A DNA stretch of 64,000 nucleotides from Lysobacter sp. cf310. Lineage in GTDB: Bacteria; Pseudomonadota; Gammaproteobacteria; Xanthomonadales; Xanthomonadaceae. How positions within the stretch are numbered: the stretch's first letter is position 1; each line of letters begins with the position of its first letter. Location: the NCBI RefSeq assembly GCF_900114355.1, contig NZ_FOSS01000001.1:62001-126000 (forward strand), read 5' to 3'. The position numbers and the translations under genes are program-made. Shown piece by piece: positions 23,896 to 29,658 of the stretch. The notes beneath the pieces were generated by a model, which saw only the letters and a list, made by a program, of their open reading frames with translations, was not told the origin of the DNA and did not search any database.

Positions 23896-25053
23896 TCAGG
23901 CCTTCGCGGCTTCGATCAAACCCTGCGCGATCGCCTCGGCGCTGGAGCGCAGCACGCTCGGGTTGACCTGCATCGCGAACTCGCCGGTCTGCGGGTGCGG
24001 CCGCGACAACAGCAAGCCGCGCTGCTTGGCGCGCTCGCGAAAGGCCTGCGTATCGCCGGAGACCGCAAGAAAATAGCGGCTGGTGCCTGCGGGCAGCTTG
24101 CGCGACTTGAAACGACGATCCTTGGCCAGCAGCGCCAGCATGCGCTCGGTGAGCTGCCAGGACTGCGCGTAATCGGCCTCGTAACGGTCCAGGTACTGCG
24201 CGGCCACCGCGACCCCCGGCCAGGCCTGCGGCAGGGAGCCGCCGAACATGCGCCGGGTGTGATACAGGCCGTCGATGAAGGCCGAATCGCCCGCCAGGAT
24301 GGCCCCCGACATGCCGTTGAAGTGCTTCCACAGCGACACGAACACGGTGTCGAACAAGGCCGCGTACTCCTGCAGGCTGCGACCGGAGTGATACGGCAGA
24401 TTGAACAGCCGCGCGCCGTCCAGGTGCAGGCGGATGCCCTCGCCGCGCGCGTACGCGCTCAGGCGCACCAACTCGTCGTAGTCGGCCATCTCGTGGTCGC
24501 GGCGCCGCACCGGCGACTCGATCGAAATCGCGCCGATCTTCATCGGCACGCGCCCGCCTGCGGACCGGCCGACCCAGTCGCGCGCCTCGTCCACCGTGAG
24601 GGTGCTGCGCCCCGGCGCCAGCGGAATCAGGTTGAGCCCGCTGAGGATCTCGCCGCCGTCGCCGCTGTCGTTATAGAAATGGCTTTCGGCCTGCACCAGC
24701 ACGCGGCGGTCGGCGCCGGCCAGCTTGCGCAGCGCGATGTGGTTGGCGAGGGTACCGGTGGGCACGAACATCGCCGCCGGCTTGCCCAGCTTCTGGGCGA
24801 AGCGGGCCTCCAGCTCGGCGACGATGCCGCCGTTGGAATAGTTGTCCGCTTCGATGCCGGCCCCGGCGCTCATGCGCTCCAGCAGCACCGCGTACTCGCG
24901 CGAGCTCAGGCCCAGGCCGTCGTCGTAGAAATTGACGTGCTTGAACAAGTCCGCGTCGGCGTGGCCGGCCGCCGCCGGCGCGGCCGCCGCTTGCGCGAGC
25001 ACGGGCGAGACCGCCGTCAAACCGCTTACTGCGATGAATCGGCGTCTGTCCAT
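23896..25053 (-). CDS. Threonine-aldolase/beta-eliminating-lyase-like protein with Tat signal
   Basis: PLP-dependent fold-type I protein, 385 residues. The core matches low-specificity threonine aldolases: FVPTGTLANHIALRK, AESHFYND, IRLHLDGARLFNLPY (Asp212 contacts PLP) and TVFVSLWKHFNGMSGAIL with Lys243 in the Schiff-base lysine position. Unlike LtaE, it begins MDRRRFIAVSGLTAVSPVLA, a twin-arginine signal with an Ala-rich cleavage region, so it may be folded with PLP in the cytoplasm and exported. The lysine context (LWKHF) also differs from the SKGLGAPVG of LtaE. Substrate is unknown. It follows asnB on the same strand with a 156-base gap. Confidence 0.82.
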   Translation of the reverse strand: MDRRRFIAVSGLTAVSPVLAQAAAAPAAAGHADADLFKHVNFYDDGLGLSSREYAVLLERMSAGAGIEADNYSNGGIVAELEARFAQKLGKPAAMFVPTGTLANHIALRKLAGADRRVLVQAESHFYNDSGDGGEILSGLNLIPLAPGRSTLTVDEARDWVGRSAGGRVPMKIGAISIESPVRRRDHEMADYDELVRLSAYARGEGIRLHLDGARLFNLPYHSGRSLQEYAALFDTVFVSLWKHFNGMSGAILAGDSAFIDGLYHTRRMFGGSLPQAWPGVAVAAQYLDRYEADYAQSWQLTERMLALLAKDRRFKSRKLPAGTSRYFLAVSGDTQAFRERAKQRGLLLSRPHPQTGEFAMQVNPSVLRSSAEAIAQGLIEAAKA

Positions 25054-25209: not shown

Positions 25210-26889
25210 TCAGGCCAACGCGGCCTGATGCACGCCCGCGACCGCGCGCCCGGAAGGATCGGCGGCGTTGGCGAAGGCCGCATCCCAGGCGATCGCGGCC
25301 GGCGAGGAACAGGCGATCGACTTGCCGCCCGGTACGGTCTCGGCGCAGGCCGTGCCCGGGAAGTGGCGCTCGAAGATCGAGCGGTAGTAGTAGGCCTCCT
25401 TGGTCTGCGGCGGGTTGATCGGGAAGCGCACCGGCGCGGCGGCCAGATCGCGGTCGCTGACCTGGGCTTCGGCATGCGCCTTGAGCCCGTCGATCCAGCC
25501 GTAGCCGACGCCGTCGCTGAACTGTTCCTTCTGCCGCCACAGGATGGAATCGGGCAGATAGCCTTCGAAGGCCTCGCGCAGCACCGCCTTCTCGATCCGG
25601 CCCTTGCCGGCCATCTTGGCCTGCGCGTCCATGCGCATCGCCACCTCCAGGAACTCGACGTCCAGGAACGGCACGCGCGGCTCCACGCCCCAGGCCATCA
25701 TCGACTTGTTCGCGCGCAGGCAGTCGAAGCTGTGCAGGGCGTCGAGCTTGCGCACCAGCTCTTCGTGGAACTCGCGCGCGTTCGGCGCCTTGTGGAAGTA
25801 CAGGTAGCCGCCGAAGATCTCGTCGCTGCCCTCGCCCGACAGCACCATCTTCACGCCCATGGCCTTGATCCGCCGCGCCAGCAGGAACATCGGCGTGGAG
25901 GCGCGGATGGTGGTGACGTCGTAGGTCTCGATGTGCTGGATCACGTCCGGCAGCACGTCCAGGCCCTCCTCGAAGGTGTAGGTGAAACCGTGGTGCACGG
26001 TGCCCAGTGCCTGCGCGGCGATCTCGGCCGCGGCCAGGTCGGGCGAGCCGTCCAGGCCGATCGCGAAGGAATGCAGGCGCGGCCACCAGGCCTCGGCCTG
26101 ATCGTCCTCCTCGATGCGCCGGCGCGCGAACCGCGCCGCGCAGGCCGCCACCAGCGACGAGTCCAGCCCGCCCGACAGCAGCACGCCGTAGGGCACGTCG
26201 CTCATCATCTGCCTGTGCACGGCGCGCTCGAAGGCGGTGCGCAGTTCCTCCTTGCTCACCTCGACGCCACGCGTGGCTTCGTAATCGCGCCACGGTCGCT
26301 GGTAGTACTTCACCGGCACGCCGACTTCGCTGTCGTAGTAATGACCGGGAGGAAACGCGGCGACGTCGTCGCACAGGCGCGCCAGCACCTTCATCTCCGA
26401 GGCCACCCACAAACGGCCGTCGGCATCGTGGCCCCAGTACAGCGGGCACACGCCGATCGGGTCGCGCGCGATCACATAGCGGCCGCGCGCCGCATCCCAC
26501 AGGGCGAAGGCGAAGATGCCGTTGAGGCGGTTCAGCAGCTCGCCCAGGTCGCCGCCTTCGCGGTAGAGCGCGTTGATGACCTCGCAGTCGGACTTGGTCT
26601 GGAATTCGTAGGGAGAGACCAACTGCTGTTCGAGTTCGCGGTGGTTGTAGATCTCGCCGTTGACCGCCAGCGCGAGCTCGCCGTCGGCCGAACGCAGCGG
26701 CTGCGAACCGCCGGTGGGGTCGACGATGGCGAGGCGTTCGTGCACCAGCAGCGCGCGCGGATCGACGCTGACGCCGGACCAGTCGGGGCCGCGGTGGCGC
26801 TGGCGCGCCGACAGGGACAGGGCCAGCGGCCTGAGCGGTCTCAAGTCGGCGCCGGGGCGGAGGTCGAACAGGCCGAGGATCGAGCACAT
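25210..26889 (-). CDS. asnB: Asparagine synthetase B, glutamine-hydrolysing
   Basis: Makes asparagine from aspartate, glutamine and ATP, 559 residues, close to E. coli AsnB. The ATG at 26889 is fixed by Cys2 (MCSILGLFD), the nucleophile of the N-terminal Ntn glutaminase domain freed by Met removal. HRGPDWSGV, VHERLAIVDPTGGSQP and LAVNGEIYNHRELE follow. The synthetase domain has the PP-loop VLLSGGLDSSLVAACAA and LSGEGSDEIFGGYLYFHKAP. About 100 bases upstream are an intrinsic terminator and a leader peptide rich in Asn codons, which suggests control by asparaginyl-tRNA supply. A 9-base palindrome (cctggccat/atggccagg) at 26933-26952 also lies in the leader. Confidence 0.95.
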   Translation of the reverse strand: MCSILGLFDLRPGADLRPLRPLALSLSARQRHRGPDWSGVSVDPRALLVHERLAIVDPTGGSQPLRSADGELALAVNGEIYNHRELEQQLVSPYEFQTKSDCEVINALYREGGDLGELLNRLNGIFAFALWDAARGRYVIARDPIGVCPLYWGHDADGRLWVASEMKVLARLCDDVAAFPPGHYYDSEVGVPVKYYQRPWRDYEATRGVEVSKEELRTAFERAVHRQMMSDVPYGVLLSGGLDSSLVAACAARFARRRIEEDDQAEAWWPRLHSFAIGLDGSPDLAAAEIAAQALGTVHHGFTYTFEEGLDVLPDVIQHIETYDVTTIRASTPMFLLARRIKAMGVKMVLSGEGSDEIFGGYLYFHKAPNAREFHEELVRKLDALHSFDCLRANKSMMAWGVEPRVPFLDVEFLEVAMRMDAQAKMAGKGRIEKAVLREAFEGYLPDSILWRQKEQFSDGVGYGWIDGLKAHAEAQVSDRDLAAAPVRFPINPPQTKEAYYYRSIFERHFPGTACAETVPGGKSIACSSPAAIAWDAAFANAADPSGRAVAGVHQAALA

Positions 26890-26985
26890 CGGGGGAGTCT
26901 CCAGGTGAGGTTGAACTGCATTTCTTTGCATCCCTGGCCATGGATGGCCAGGCGCTTGTTCAAGGACGGACGATCAGCAAAGACC

Positions 26986-27015
26986 AAAAAAAACCCGCGC
27001 TGGTCGGCGCGGGCT
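26986..27015 (-). terminator. Attenuator terminator ahead of asnB
   Basis: On the minus strand the RNA reads CCCGCGC, a 6-base loop CGACCA, GCGCGGG, then eight U residues. It lies between the leader peptide and asnB, so it would stop transcription before asnB unless an alternative helix forms. The segment GGCCGGCG at the end of the leader gene (27060-27053) can pair with CGCCGACC in the terminator 5' arm and loop (27009-27002) at seven of eight positions, giving a candidate antiterminator. Confidence 0.85.
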
Positions 27016-27047
27016 TCGTTGACGATTAAGAGCGTATGTTGCGCGCG

Positions 27048-27167
27048 CTAATCGCCGGCCCGCGGGAGGCTGGCGTTATTGCGATTGTTATTGTTCGCCA
27101 CGGCCACGGCCGCGCGGCCGCGGAGGGCGGCGCTGCGGATCAGGACGGTGGCGAAGGGACGGCTCAT
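27048..27167 (-). CDS. Asparagine-rich leader peptide of asnB
   Basis: Short reading frame of 39 codons on the minus strand. It begins MSRPFATVLIRSAALRGRAA and contains VAVANNNNRNNAS, that is six Asn codons in seven (27095-27075), before a TAG stop 33 bases upstream of an intrinsic terminator and about 160 bases upstream of asnB. The AAC/AAT run is A/T-rich in a GC-rich region. This is the layout of a ribosome-mediated attenuator: ribosomes starved for Asn-tRNA would stall on the run, leave 27060-27053 free to pair with the terminator arm, and allow read-through. No earlier description of such a leader is known to me. Confidence 0.82.
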   Translation of the reverse strand: MSRPFATVLIRSAALRGRAAVAVANNNNRNNASLPRAGD

Positions 27168-27173
27168 GGCCCG

Positions 27174-27202
27174 ATCCTGCTTGAGGCCGGGGCGTTTTGC
27201 AA
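27174..27202 (-). promoter_or_regulatory. Candidate promoter of the asnB leader transcript
   Basis: On the minus strand TTGCAA (27202-27197) and CAGGAT (27179-27174) are 17 bases apart. The -10 box ends six bases before the leader-peptide ATG, so the start site would fall at or near the A of ATG and the leader would be almost leaderless. The -10 match is modest. Confidence 0.4.
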
Positions 27203-27300
27203 GCGGCCGGGCCAGGACCGGCCGAATCCGCCCCCAGCCAACGCGCCCTCTTCCGGACCGAAGCGGCCAATCGGCTAAGCTGCGCCGCGGAGGGCACCTC

Positions 27301-29658
27301 ATGGCACATTGGATCAAGCGCGGCCTGCTCGCGCTGCTGGTGATGGGTTTGATCGCGGGCGCGGGCGCCTGGTGGTTGCTGCGCGGCAGCCTGCCGCAGT
27401 TGGACGGCGAACTGGCCCTGCAGGGGCTGTCGGCCCCGGTGACCGTGCAGCGCGATGCGCAGGGCGTGGTCACCATCGACGCCGCCAACGAGACCGATGC
27501 GATCCGCGCGCTGGGTTACATCCACGCGCAGGAACGCTACTTCGAAATGGACCTGCTGCGCCGCACCGCGGCCGGCGAGCTGTCGGCGCTGTTCGGCCCG
27601 ATCGCGGTCGACGTGGACCAACGCCGGCGCATGCATCGCCTGCGCGCACGCACCGAACAGCAACTGCAGAGCTTCGCCGGCGAGCAGCGCCCGCTGCTGC
27701 AGGCCTACACCGACGGCGTCAACGACGGCCTCGGCGCGCTGCGCGCACGCCCCTGGCCCTATCTGCTGCTGGGCACGCAACCGCAACCTTGGCAGCTGGC
27801 CGACTCGGCGCTGGTCGGTTACGCCATGTACTTCGACCTGCAGGACGCCGACAACGTGCGCGAACGCGCGCTGTGGAAGCTGCGCCCGGCGCTGTCGCCG
27901 AACCTGTACGCACTGCTCACCCACGGCAGCAGCAGCTGGGACGCGCCCCTGTTCGGCAATCCGCACGGCGACGTGCAGCTGCCCGATGCGGCCACCATCG
28001 ACCTGCGCGCCATGCCGATCCCCGCCGACGAAGCGCCGGTGGAAGTGCCGCGCCGCAACGAGGTCGGCAGCAACAATTTCGCCGTCGCCGGCAGCCGCAC
28101 CGGCGATGGCCGCGCGATCGTCGCCGACGACATGCACCTGGGCCTGCGCGCGCCCAACCTGTGGTTCCGCGCGCGCCTGCGCTATGCCGATGCGCGCGTA
28201 CCCGGCGGCCGCATCGACGCCGGCGGCTTCACCCTGCCCGGCCTGCCCGCGCTGGTGGTCGGCAGCAACGGCCATGTCGCCTGGGGCTTCACCAACAGCT
28301 ACGGCGACTGGCTGGACTGGGCGATCGCGCCCGGCTGCGCCGGCCCCGCCCCCAAAGCCTGCGCCGGGCTGCGCACCTACGAGGAACGCATCGAGGTCAA
28401 GGGCGAGGCCGCGCGCGTGCTGCGCGTGCGCGAGACCGCCTGGGGCCCGTTGATGCACGACAACCCCGACGGCAGCGCGCTGGCCCTGCGCTGGTCCGCG
28501 CACCTGCCCGGCGGGCTCAACCTGGGCCTGGCCAAGCTGGTGCGCGCGCAGTCGCTGGACGAGGCCCTGGACGACGCCCAGGGCGTCGCCATGCCGGTGC
28601 AGAACCTGCTGGTGGCCGACCGCACGGGCCGGATCGCCTGGCGCTTGCTCGGCCCGATCCCGCAGCGCGCGCCGGGCTGCACGCCGGCGCTGCCCATGGC
28701 CGCCGATGCAGCCTGCCCGCCCTGGTCGCTGCGCAGCGATGTCGCGCCGCAATTGATCGATCCGCCCGGCGGGCGCCTGTGGACGGCGAACTCGCGCACG
28801 CTGGAAGGCGCCGAACTGGCGCGCATCGGCGACGGCGGCCTGGTCCTGGGCGCGCGCGCGCAGCAGATCCGCGACGACCTCATAAGCAAGCAGCGCCTGG
28901 ACGAACGCGACCTGCTGCGCATCCAGCTCGACGATCGCGCGGTGTTCCTGTCGCGCTGGTGGACGCTGCTGCGCGACCAGGCGGCTAGCTCCAGGAATTC
29001 GCCGGCCTTGAAGGAACTGGCCGCGGCGTCCGCGCACTGGGAGGGCCGCGCCATACCCGAGTCGGTGAGCTACCGTCTGGTGCGCTCCTGGCGCCTGGCC
29101 GTGCACGATCGCCTGATCGACGGCCTGACCGCGCCGGCGCGCGTGCGCCAGGGCCGCGATTTCGAGATGCCCGAGCTGCCGCAGTTCGAAGGCGTGGCCT
29201 GGCCGCTGGTGACCCAGCGGCCGCCGCATCTGCTGCCGCGCCGTTACCCGTCCTGGGACGCGCTGTTCGAGGATGCCGCACGTCAGGTCCGCGACGATCT
29301 CGCCCAGCAGGGCCCGCTCGCGCAGCGCCGCTGGGGCGAACGCAACACCGCCGCGATCTGCCACCCGCTGTCGCGCGCCCTGCCCGAGTTCGCCAAGCCG
29401 GTGCTGTGCATGCCTGCCGACGAGCTGCCCGGCGACGTCGCCATGCCGCGCGTGCAGCGCAAGGATTTCGGCGCCTCCGAACGCATGGTGGTGGCGCCCG
29501 GCCACGAAGCCGAAGGCATCATCCACATGCCCGGCGGCCAGAGCGGACATCCGCTGTCGCCGTACTGGGGCGCAGGCCACGAGGACTGGGTGGAGGGCCG
29601 CGCCTCGCCGTTCCTGCCGGGGACGACGCGGTATACGCTGACGCTCAAGCCGCGCTGA
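27301..29658 (+). CDS. Penicillin acylase family Ntn-hydrolase
   Basis: Exported amidohydrolase of 785 residues, cleaved autocatalytically into two chains. The ATG at 27301 follows GGAGGG. Residues 8-26 are a membrane/signal segment (LLALLVMGLIAGAGAWWLL). The small-subunit domain has the family blocks TIDAANETDAIRALGYIHAQ and ERYFEMDLLRRTAAGELSAL. The beta-chain nucleophile is Ser257 in NEVGSNNFAVAGS, followed by ADDMHLGLRAPNLWF. The C-terminus (PGGQSGHPLSPYWGAGHEDW) is typical. Relatives cleave beta-lactam side chains or acyl-homoserine lactones; sequence alone does not choose. It is divergent from the asnB leader. Confidence 0.9.
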   Translation: MAHWIKRGLLALLVMGLIAGAGAWWLLRGSLPQLDGELALQGLSAPVTVQRDAQGVVTIDAANETDAIRALGYIHAQERYFEMDLLRRTAAGELSALFGPIAVDVDQRRRMHRLRARTEQQLQSFAGEQRPLLQAYTDGVNDGLGALRARPWPYLLLGTQPQPWQLADSALVGYAMYFDLQDADNVRERALWKLRPALSPNLYALLTHGSSSWDAPLFGNPHGDVQLPDAATIDLRAMPIPADEAPVEVPRRNEVGSNNFAVAGSRTGDGRAIVADDMHLGLRAPNLWFRARLRYADARVPGGRIDAGGFTLPGLPALVVGSNGHVAWGFTNSYGDWLDWAIAPGCAGPAPKACAGLRTYEERIEVKGEAARVLRVRETAWGPLMHDNPDGSALALRWSAHLPGGLNLGLAKLVRAQSLDEALDDAQGVAMPVQNLLVADRTGRIAWRLLGPIPQRAPGCTPALPMAADAACPPWSLRSDVAPQLIDPPGGRLWTANSRTLEGAELARIGDGGLVLGARAQQIRDDLISKQRLDERDLLRIQLDDRAVFLSRWWTLLRDQAASSRNSPALKELAAASAHWEGRAIPESVSYRLVRSWRLAVHDRLIDGLTAPARVRQGRDFEMPELPQFEGVAWPLVTQRPPHLLPRRYPSWDALFEDAARQVRDDLAQQGPLAQRRWGERNTAAICHPLSRALPEFAKPVLCMPADELPGDVAMPRVQRKDFGASERMVVAPGHEAEGIIHMPGGQSGHPLSPYWGAGHEDWVEGRASPFLPGTTRYTLTLKPR

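Follow-up and report, generated by a model that had tools for sequence, protein, structure and literature searches.

The window analysed here is a stretch of 64,000 nucleotides from the 4.7 Mb genome of Lysobacter sp. cf310, in which a short asparagine-rich reading frame, its stop codon, a GC hairpin closed by a T run and the gene asnB follow one another on the minus strand (Table 1). The preliminary description of this DNA had proposed a 39-codon Asn-rich minus-strand frame followed by a stop, a terminator and asnB, and each of these features is located where it had been placed. The downstream protein is an asparagine synthase B (NCBIfam NF006949, 852.4 bits at a cut-off of 499), which is 99% identical to AsnB of Lysobacter sp. 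Root916. The same genome encodes its own AsnRS, and the 450 nt searched upstream of its asnS hold no frame with at least three Asn in nine codons. Directly 3' of asnB lies a possibly co-transcribed gene for a PLP-dependent aldolase (window 23896-25053, minus strand) with weak similarity, below cut-offs, to GntG or threonine aldolase. Divergent from the leader, an acylase-like gene (27301-29658, plus strand; weak PvdQ match) separates asnB from dapE (TIGR01246); the end of a dapE-like gene was seen by eye just before the leader in L009, L011, L014 and L041.

Table 1. Features of the asparagine-rich leader and of asnB, numbered from the first letter of the window
Feature	Position	Strand	Basis or remark
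Predicted -35 box, TTGCAA	27202-27197	-	17-nt spacer to the -10 box
Predicted -10 box, CAGGAT, separated from the leader start codon by 6 nt	27179-27174	-	
Predicted transcription start at the ATG adenine of the leader frame	27167	-	inferred from -10 spacing
Leader peptide frame MSRPFATVLIRSAALRGRAAVAVANNNNRNNASLPRAGD, 39 codons and TAG stop	27167-27048	-	ORF translation
Putative control codons NNNNRNN (AAC AAT AAC AAT CGC AAT AAC), six Asn codons in seven	27095-27075	-	translation; relatives Asn-rich
Putative antiterminator strand 2, CGCGGGC	27064-27058	-	conserved, co-varying pairing
TAG stop of the leader frame	27050-27048	-	
Terminator hairpin (3:4) with a stem of 11 pairs and a loop of 6	27017-26990	-	terminator scan and relatives
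Terminator sequence GAAGCCCGCGC-CGACCA-GCGCGGGTTTT	27017-26990	-	
Strand 3, GCCCGCG, common to antiterminator and terminator	27014-27008	-	conserved, co-varying pairing
Eight-T run closing the terminator	26993-26986	-	sequence
asnB, glutamine-hydrolysing asparagine synthase B, putatively controlled gene	26889-25210	-	NCBIfam NF006949

Classical attenuators possess a short leader frame with codons for the product of the pathway and an antiterminator helix 2:3 that competes with a terminator helix 3:4. The general scheme of ribosome-mediated attenuation is given in PMC1183508. By itself, the window element is statistically unremarkable except for its Asn count, six Asn in 39 residues corresponding to a p of 3.6e-5 at the Asn frequency of asnB in that genome. 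A terminator scan of 26600-27700 gave one site as compared to 1.1 in shuffles, the RNA fold has a z of -1.74 with 11 of 200 shuffles as good, and its 2:3 pairing is not above shuffles of its GC-rich sequence (123/200 as good). A chance Asn run before an ordinary terminator in a GC-rich genome would be in line with these values, as terminator and pairing of the window alone stay within shuffles. That the element is nevertheless above chance rests on comparative evidence from relatives and not on the window alone, and since conservation extends over three families of the order and covariation is seen, coincidence can practically be dismissed.

The asnB loci compared are the best 80 among the matches listed, of which L001-L043 are at least 71% identical. 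Among these closest named loci 40 of 43 carry the element; it is absent from L006, L013 and L034, labelled Holophagales, Deltaproteobacteria and Rhodococcus, which have an asnB of the Lysobacterales clade without the leader and are read as transfer or misbinning. The window and the 40 loci with the element form a set of 41 rows (L051 was left out of the alignment), each with promoter boxes, an Asn-rich frame, a stop and a GC hairpin 19-36 nt past the stop, the starts of six leaders having been assigned by hand after the automatic pass. Asn accounts for 263 of 1466 leader residues versus 347 of 23035 residues in the asnB proteins, with only three Asn in three of the 41 leaders, and AAT for 122 of the 263 leader Asn codons (46%) versus 55 of 347 in asnB (16%). 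As AAC and AAT are both present in the Asn runs, it is the amino acid that is kept, not the base. In a tree of 57 AsnB proteins built by a quick method, 41 of 42 leader-bearing rows sit on one branch, together with three rows that have no leader and whose records name other phyla; L055, labelled Lysobacterales, has no element, and its asnB (63% identical) sits in another asnB group. Among the 37 more distant loci (L044-L080 of the best 80), only L051, a Rubrivirga MAG, resembles the element in frame and terminator, and chance N-rich stretches occur in L064, L066, L072 and L078. The N-rich frames at Photobacterium asnB (L060 and L080, four Asn in nine) were rejected, as the sequence is AT-rich and no GC hairpin with T run was visible in 260 nt.

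A covariance model built from the 41 rows and searched in 299 genomes of the order has a match at E<=1e-8 in 137 of them (counted by hand from the table), namely in 71 of 79 listed genomes of the family of the window, 63 of 75 listed in a second family (f12) and three of three listed in a third (f2); 21 genomes without a match are absent from the table, and the denominators of f12 and f2 may be larger. Together with G214 (E 2.5e-7, beside asnB) this amounts to 138 inspected places, all of which possess an Asn-rich frame (138/138) with 3-10 Asn each, 125 distinct peptides and AAT as 434 of 893 Asn codons. It has to be considered that the model itself was built from Asn-rich leaders and that the frame scripts took only frames with at least two or three Asn, though misses would have been reported. 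An asnB-like start follows within 420 nt downstream in 137 of 138 places, with L255 as the exception (none in the stretch taken). Non-conservation of Asn codons or terminator had been named beforehand as a refutation of the attenuator; the closest loci and the genome places present the opposite.

In the window's own family, eight genomes have no strong match; six of them lack asnB at E 1e-30 and two have a 65% identical asnB. In a check of asnB presence in 35 hand-chosen genomes, all nine with the element have an asnB of 76-82% identity, none of the 26 without a strong match has one above 70%, and ten of the 26 have one of 61-70%, in front of which (450 nt upstream) no frame with at least three Asn in nine codons was found (0/10). 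On sequence grounds, the element is tied to one asnB clade. Among 274 genomes of the class, E 1e-6 was reached by three members of the order and by G433. At the latter place (L263, G433:C1:2639500-2641400) a frame lacking the start codons ATG, GTG and TTG contains an Asn-rich NYNNN stretch and has a Thr-rich frame next to it, a second AAC/AAT-rich stretch precedes a GC hairpin, and no asnB was found in the 1.5 kb after the Asn-rich stretch.

In a single-sequence duplex test, 95% of shuffles were beaten by 25 of 42 sequences, not including the window, and covariation was relied on instead. The terminator stem 3:4 is 93.2% paired in the 41 rows (22-54% when slid) and 94.0% in 133 rows, with covariation present. 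The antiterminator of the preliminary description, 27060-27053 with 27009-27002, pairs at seven of eight positions in the window but is not conserved and was discarded, as its pairing across 41 relatives (58.2%) is on a par with that of shuffles (58.4%). The idea of an antiterminator held nevertheless, with the conserved site only a few bases off, between strands 2 and 3 of Table 1, and with this site both helices proved conserved and co-varying, which lends support to the initial reading of a classical asparagine attenuator of asnB. The ten pairs of this antiterminator are 75.2% paired in the 41 rows (34-42% when slid) and 84.4% on 133 distinct rows versus 29-43% slid. Across the 41 rows, 30 cells changed on both sides versus 18.4 in shuffles, a value reached by none of 500, and the number of pair types is not above shuffles. 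These shuffle controls make no correction for relatedness; mapped on the tree, the two pairs that vary most require a minimum of four and five changes, one-sided ones included.

One 2:3 pair is U-A in 44, G-C in 55, C-G in 5, G-U in 6 and unpaired in 23 of the 133 rows. The variable base is outside the terminator stem in 49 rows, 43 of which still pair it with strand 2. Where strand 3 has the variant CCUGC, strand 2 reads GCAGG in three of three rows; the matching change in the leader turns an Arg into a Gln codon, and strand 4 follows in two of the three. The 2:3 helix is only partial in L008 and L010. As to a protector or pause hairpin 1:2, clade-specific candidates were seen by eye only.

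The variability of the leader bears on two readings that assign a role to the peptide. As an arrest peptide or nascent-chain sensor, the Asn-rich peptide itself would stall the ribosome on some signal, with the same RNA switch thereafter. The leader peptide is indeed partly conserved and the RNA switch would look identical, but in an arrest peptide certain residues should stay fixed, whereas the length ranges from 20 to 45, the residues before the Asn run are highly variable, the Asn count is 3-10 and the residues after the run track strand 2 (R to Q in the CCUGC variants), which makes this reading very unlikely. Alternatively, the frame could encode a small functional protein with the hairpin as its own terminator and asnB could have a separate promoter; transcripts ending at the hairpin would then be small mRNAs, and for the peTrpL peptide of Sinorhizobium meliloti an action in trans is described in PMC7298713. 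Such a protein is extremely unlikely in view of N-terminal parts that differ widely between clades, an asnB-like start downstream in 137/138 places and a strand 2 that co-varies with strand 3 instead of preserving protein.

In an attenuator sensed by the translating ribosome, the distances between codons and strands matter. Counted on 137 of the 138 rows (one row unmappable), strand 2 follows the last Asn codon at a distance of 13 or 16 nt, measured from the first base of that codon, in 91 rows and of 7 nt in 37. From the end of strand 2 to the stop codon there are 7 nt in 109 rows; the corresponding distances in the window are 13 and 7 nt. In the fold test, a ribosome was placed with the last clustered Asn codon in its A site, its footprint being an assumption in which the RNA counts as free starting 12 nt past the A site's first base. 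Under the stalled ribosome and before strand 4 is made, the antiterminator reaches 0.5 in 32 of 41 rows and stays below 0.5 in nine; once all strands are present, equilibrium favours the terminator in 36 of 41. The terminator wins in 41 of 41 when the ribosome sits at the stop codon, and in 37 of 41 without a ribosome. The earlier proposal that strand 2 is free under a stalled ribosome and covered by one at the stop codon fits the spacing in relatives and, given the assumed footprint, the fold test (32/41 and 41/41), although the exact stall point is uncertain. As the terminator beats the antiterminator at equilibrium in 36/41 even in the stalled state, the switch must be kinetic. The same calculation gave 0.71 then 0.02 for Escherichia coli trpL and 0.46 then 0.00 for thrL; because both show the same folding pattern, the element behaves, within this model, like textbook attenuators, for which the order of synthesis is decisive.

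As to the predicted promoter, TTGC is found at -35 in 135 of 138 leaders (TTGC 40, TTAC 1 in the 41-row set), and 130 of 138 have a gap of 6 or 7 nt between the -10 box and the start codon (six to eight nt across the 41-row set); since the start codon was picked partly by promoter score, these two counts are not independent. The start codon is ATG in 137 of 138, and C occupies -1, a position outside the score, in 130 of 138, which is what a transcription start at the A of the ATG would lead one to expect. With the promoter 6-7 nt before the start codon in 130/138, the leader mRNA is thus predicted from sequence to be leaderless, its 5' end at or next to the A of the ATG. A four-base ribosome-site match before the leader occurs in 10 of 41 rows, nine of which are the AGGA within the -10 box CAGGAT and one of which overlaps the -10 box GAGAGT; in front of asnB, a four- or five-base match is present in 34 of 41.

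A leaderless leader in a transcription attenuator has a precedent in S. meliloti trpL, the leader RNA of which begins at the ATG of the leader frame according to PMC7298713; as described there it differs by its Trp codons, its 14 codons and its occurrence in Alphaproteobacteria. Closer at hand, seven of eleven inspected secondary matches of the model are branched-chain leaders of the same order (L126-L128, L130, L131, L134, L135), which like L090 from the window's own genome (G000:C12:11850-11989) have LVLVLITS-type Leu/Val/Ile runs, a GC terminator and, in most cases, promoter-like boxes that precede the ATG by a few nt. The remaining four (L129, L132, L133, L139) were set aside, as they look like terminators behind longer frames. 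The branched-chain leaders (...LVLVLITSPTGAGRTGV) share with the Asn element the promoter-like boxes just before the ATG, a frame end resembling strand 2 and a GC terminator (24 nt after the stop in the one measured), but carry Leu, Val and Ile codons in place of Asn; they may be leaderless too.

The element is, with high confidence but in the absence of expression data, interpreted as a ribosome-mediated transcription attenuator of asnB that senses the charging of tRNA-Asn. Transcription would begin with the A of the leader's ATG or immediately beside it, and a ribosome would load on the inferred leaderless 5' end. With ample asparaginyl-tRNA, the ribosome inferred to translate the leader would reach the stop codon 7 nt past strand 2 and mask strand 2, upon which the terminator 3:4 would form and asnB be off. 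When asparagine is short, the inferred stalling on the Asn run would leave strand 2 free to pair with the emerging strand 3, pre-empting the terminator, and the polymerase would, by the same inference, read through into asnB.

Asparagine supply or charging is also controlled by asparagine T-boxes of Firmicutes, in which the tRNA binds the RNA directly, and in the case of E. coli asnA by the protein regulator AsnC; neither uses a leader peptide. No T-box covariance model matched in the Rfam search of window 26700-27500 up to E 1, Leu_leader (RF00512) scores 23.9 bits in the window versus a gathering threshold of 50, which is not met, and no Rfam match at gathering was obtained in the five loci L001, L014, L019, L036 and L126. 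With the classical attenuators (E. coli trpL and thrL; his, leu and ilv leaders) the element shares product codons and the scheme of 2:3 versus 3:4, and differs from them by asparagine and asnB, the predicted leaderless leader mRNA and the link to one asnB clade. The main survey of proteobacterial attenuators, by Vitreschak and others in 2004, reportedly covers branched-chain, His, Thr, Trp and Phe cases only. In agreement with the earlier remark that no described asparagine attenuator of this kind was known, full-text literature searches returned no title on one, supplements being outside their scope. A term search of the main texts, as far as available, did not find 'asparagine' in PMC1183508, PMC1262725 and PMC9413887, nor 'asparag' or asnB in PMC2965389. 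A new amino-acid specificity, asparagine, of a known mechanism is the best reading.

With respect to L051, asnB is found at E 1e-150 in 14 of 80 genomes of the order to which its genome belongs. Eleven full-length Rhodothermota asnB loci were inspected, three partial ones (L276-L278) being excluded. All five close loci (at least 78% identity, that of L051 itself included; L264, L266-L269) have upstream of asnB a frame of 23-25 codons with 3-5 Asn, a GC hairpin and a T run, and none of the six at 64-68% has such a frame, L273 containing a chance stretch of three Asn. As the 2:3 pairing does not exceed shuffles in any of these five, the claim for Rhodothermota is restricted to the Asn run and the terminator, and these leaders are possibly a second origin of asparagine attenuation. 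Whether asparagine attenuation of asnB has been recurrently invented, in a leaderless form in one Lysobacterales asnB clade and in an unrelated-looking form in Rhodothermota, is a proposition evenly poised between true and false.

If the attenuator reading is true, asparagine joins the amino acids read by ribosome-mediated attenuation. As a compact and apparently leaderless attenuator, the element would make initiation, stalling and termination testable by a few codon swaps. It would explain the control of asparagine synthesis across much of the order, including Xanthomonas, Stenotrophomonas, Lysobacter, Dyella and Rhodanobacter.
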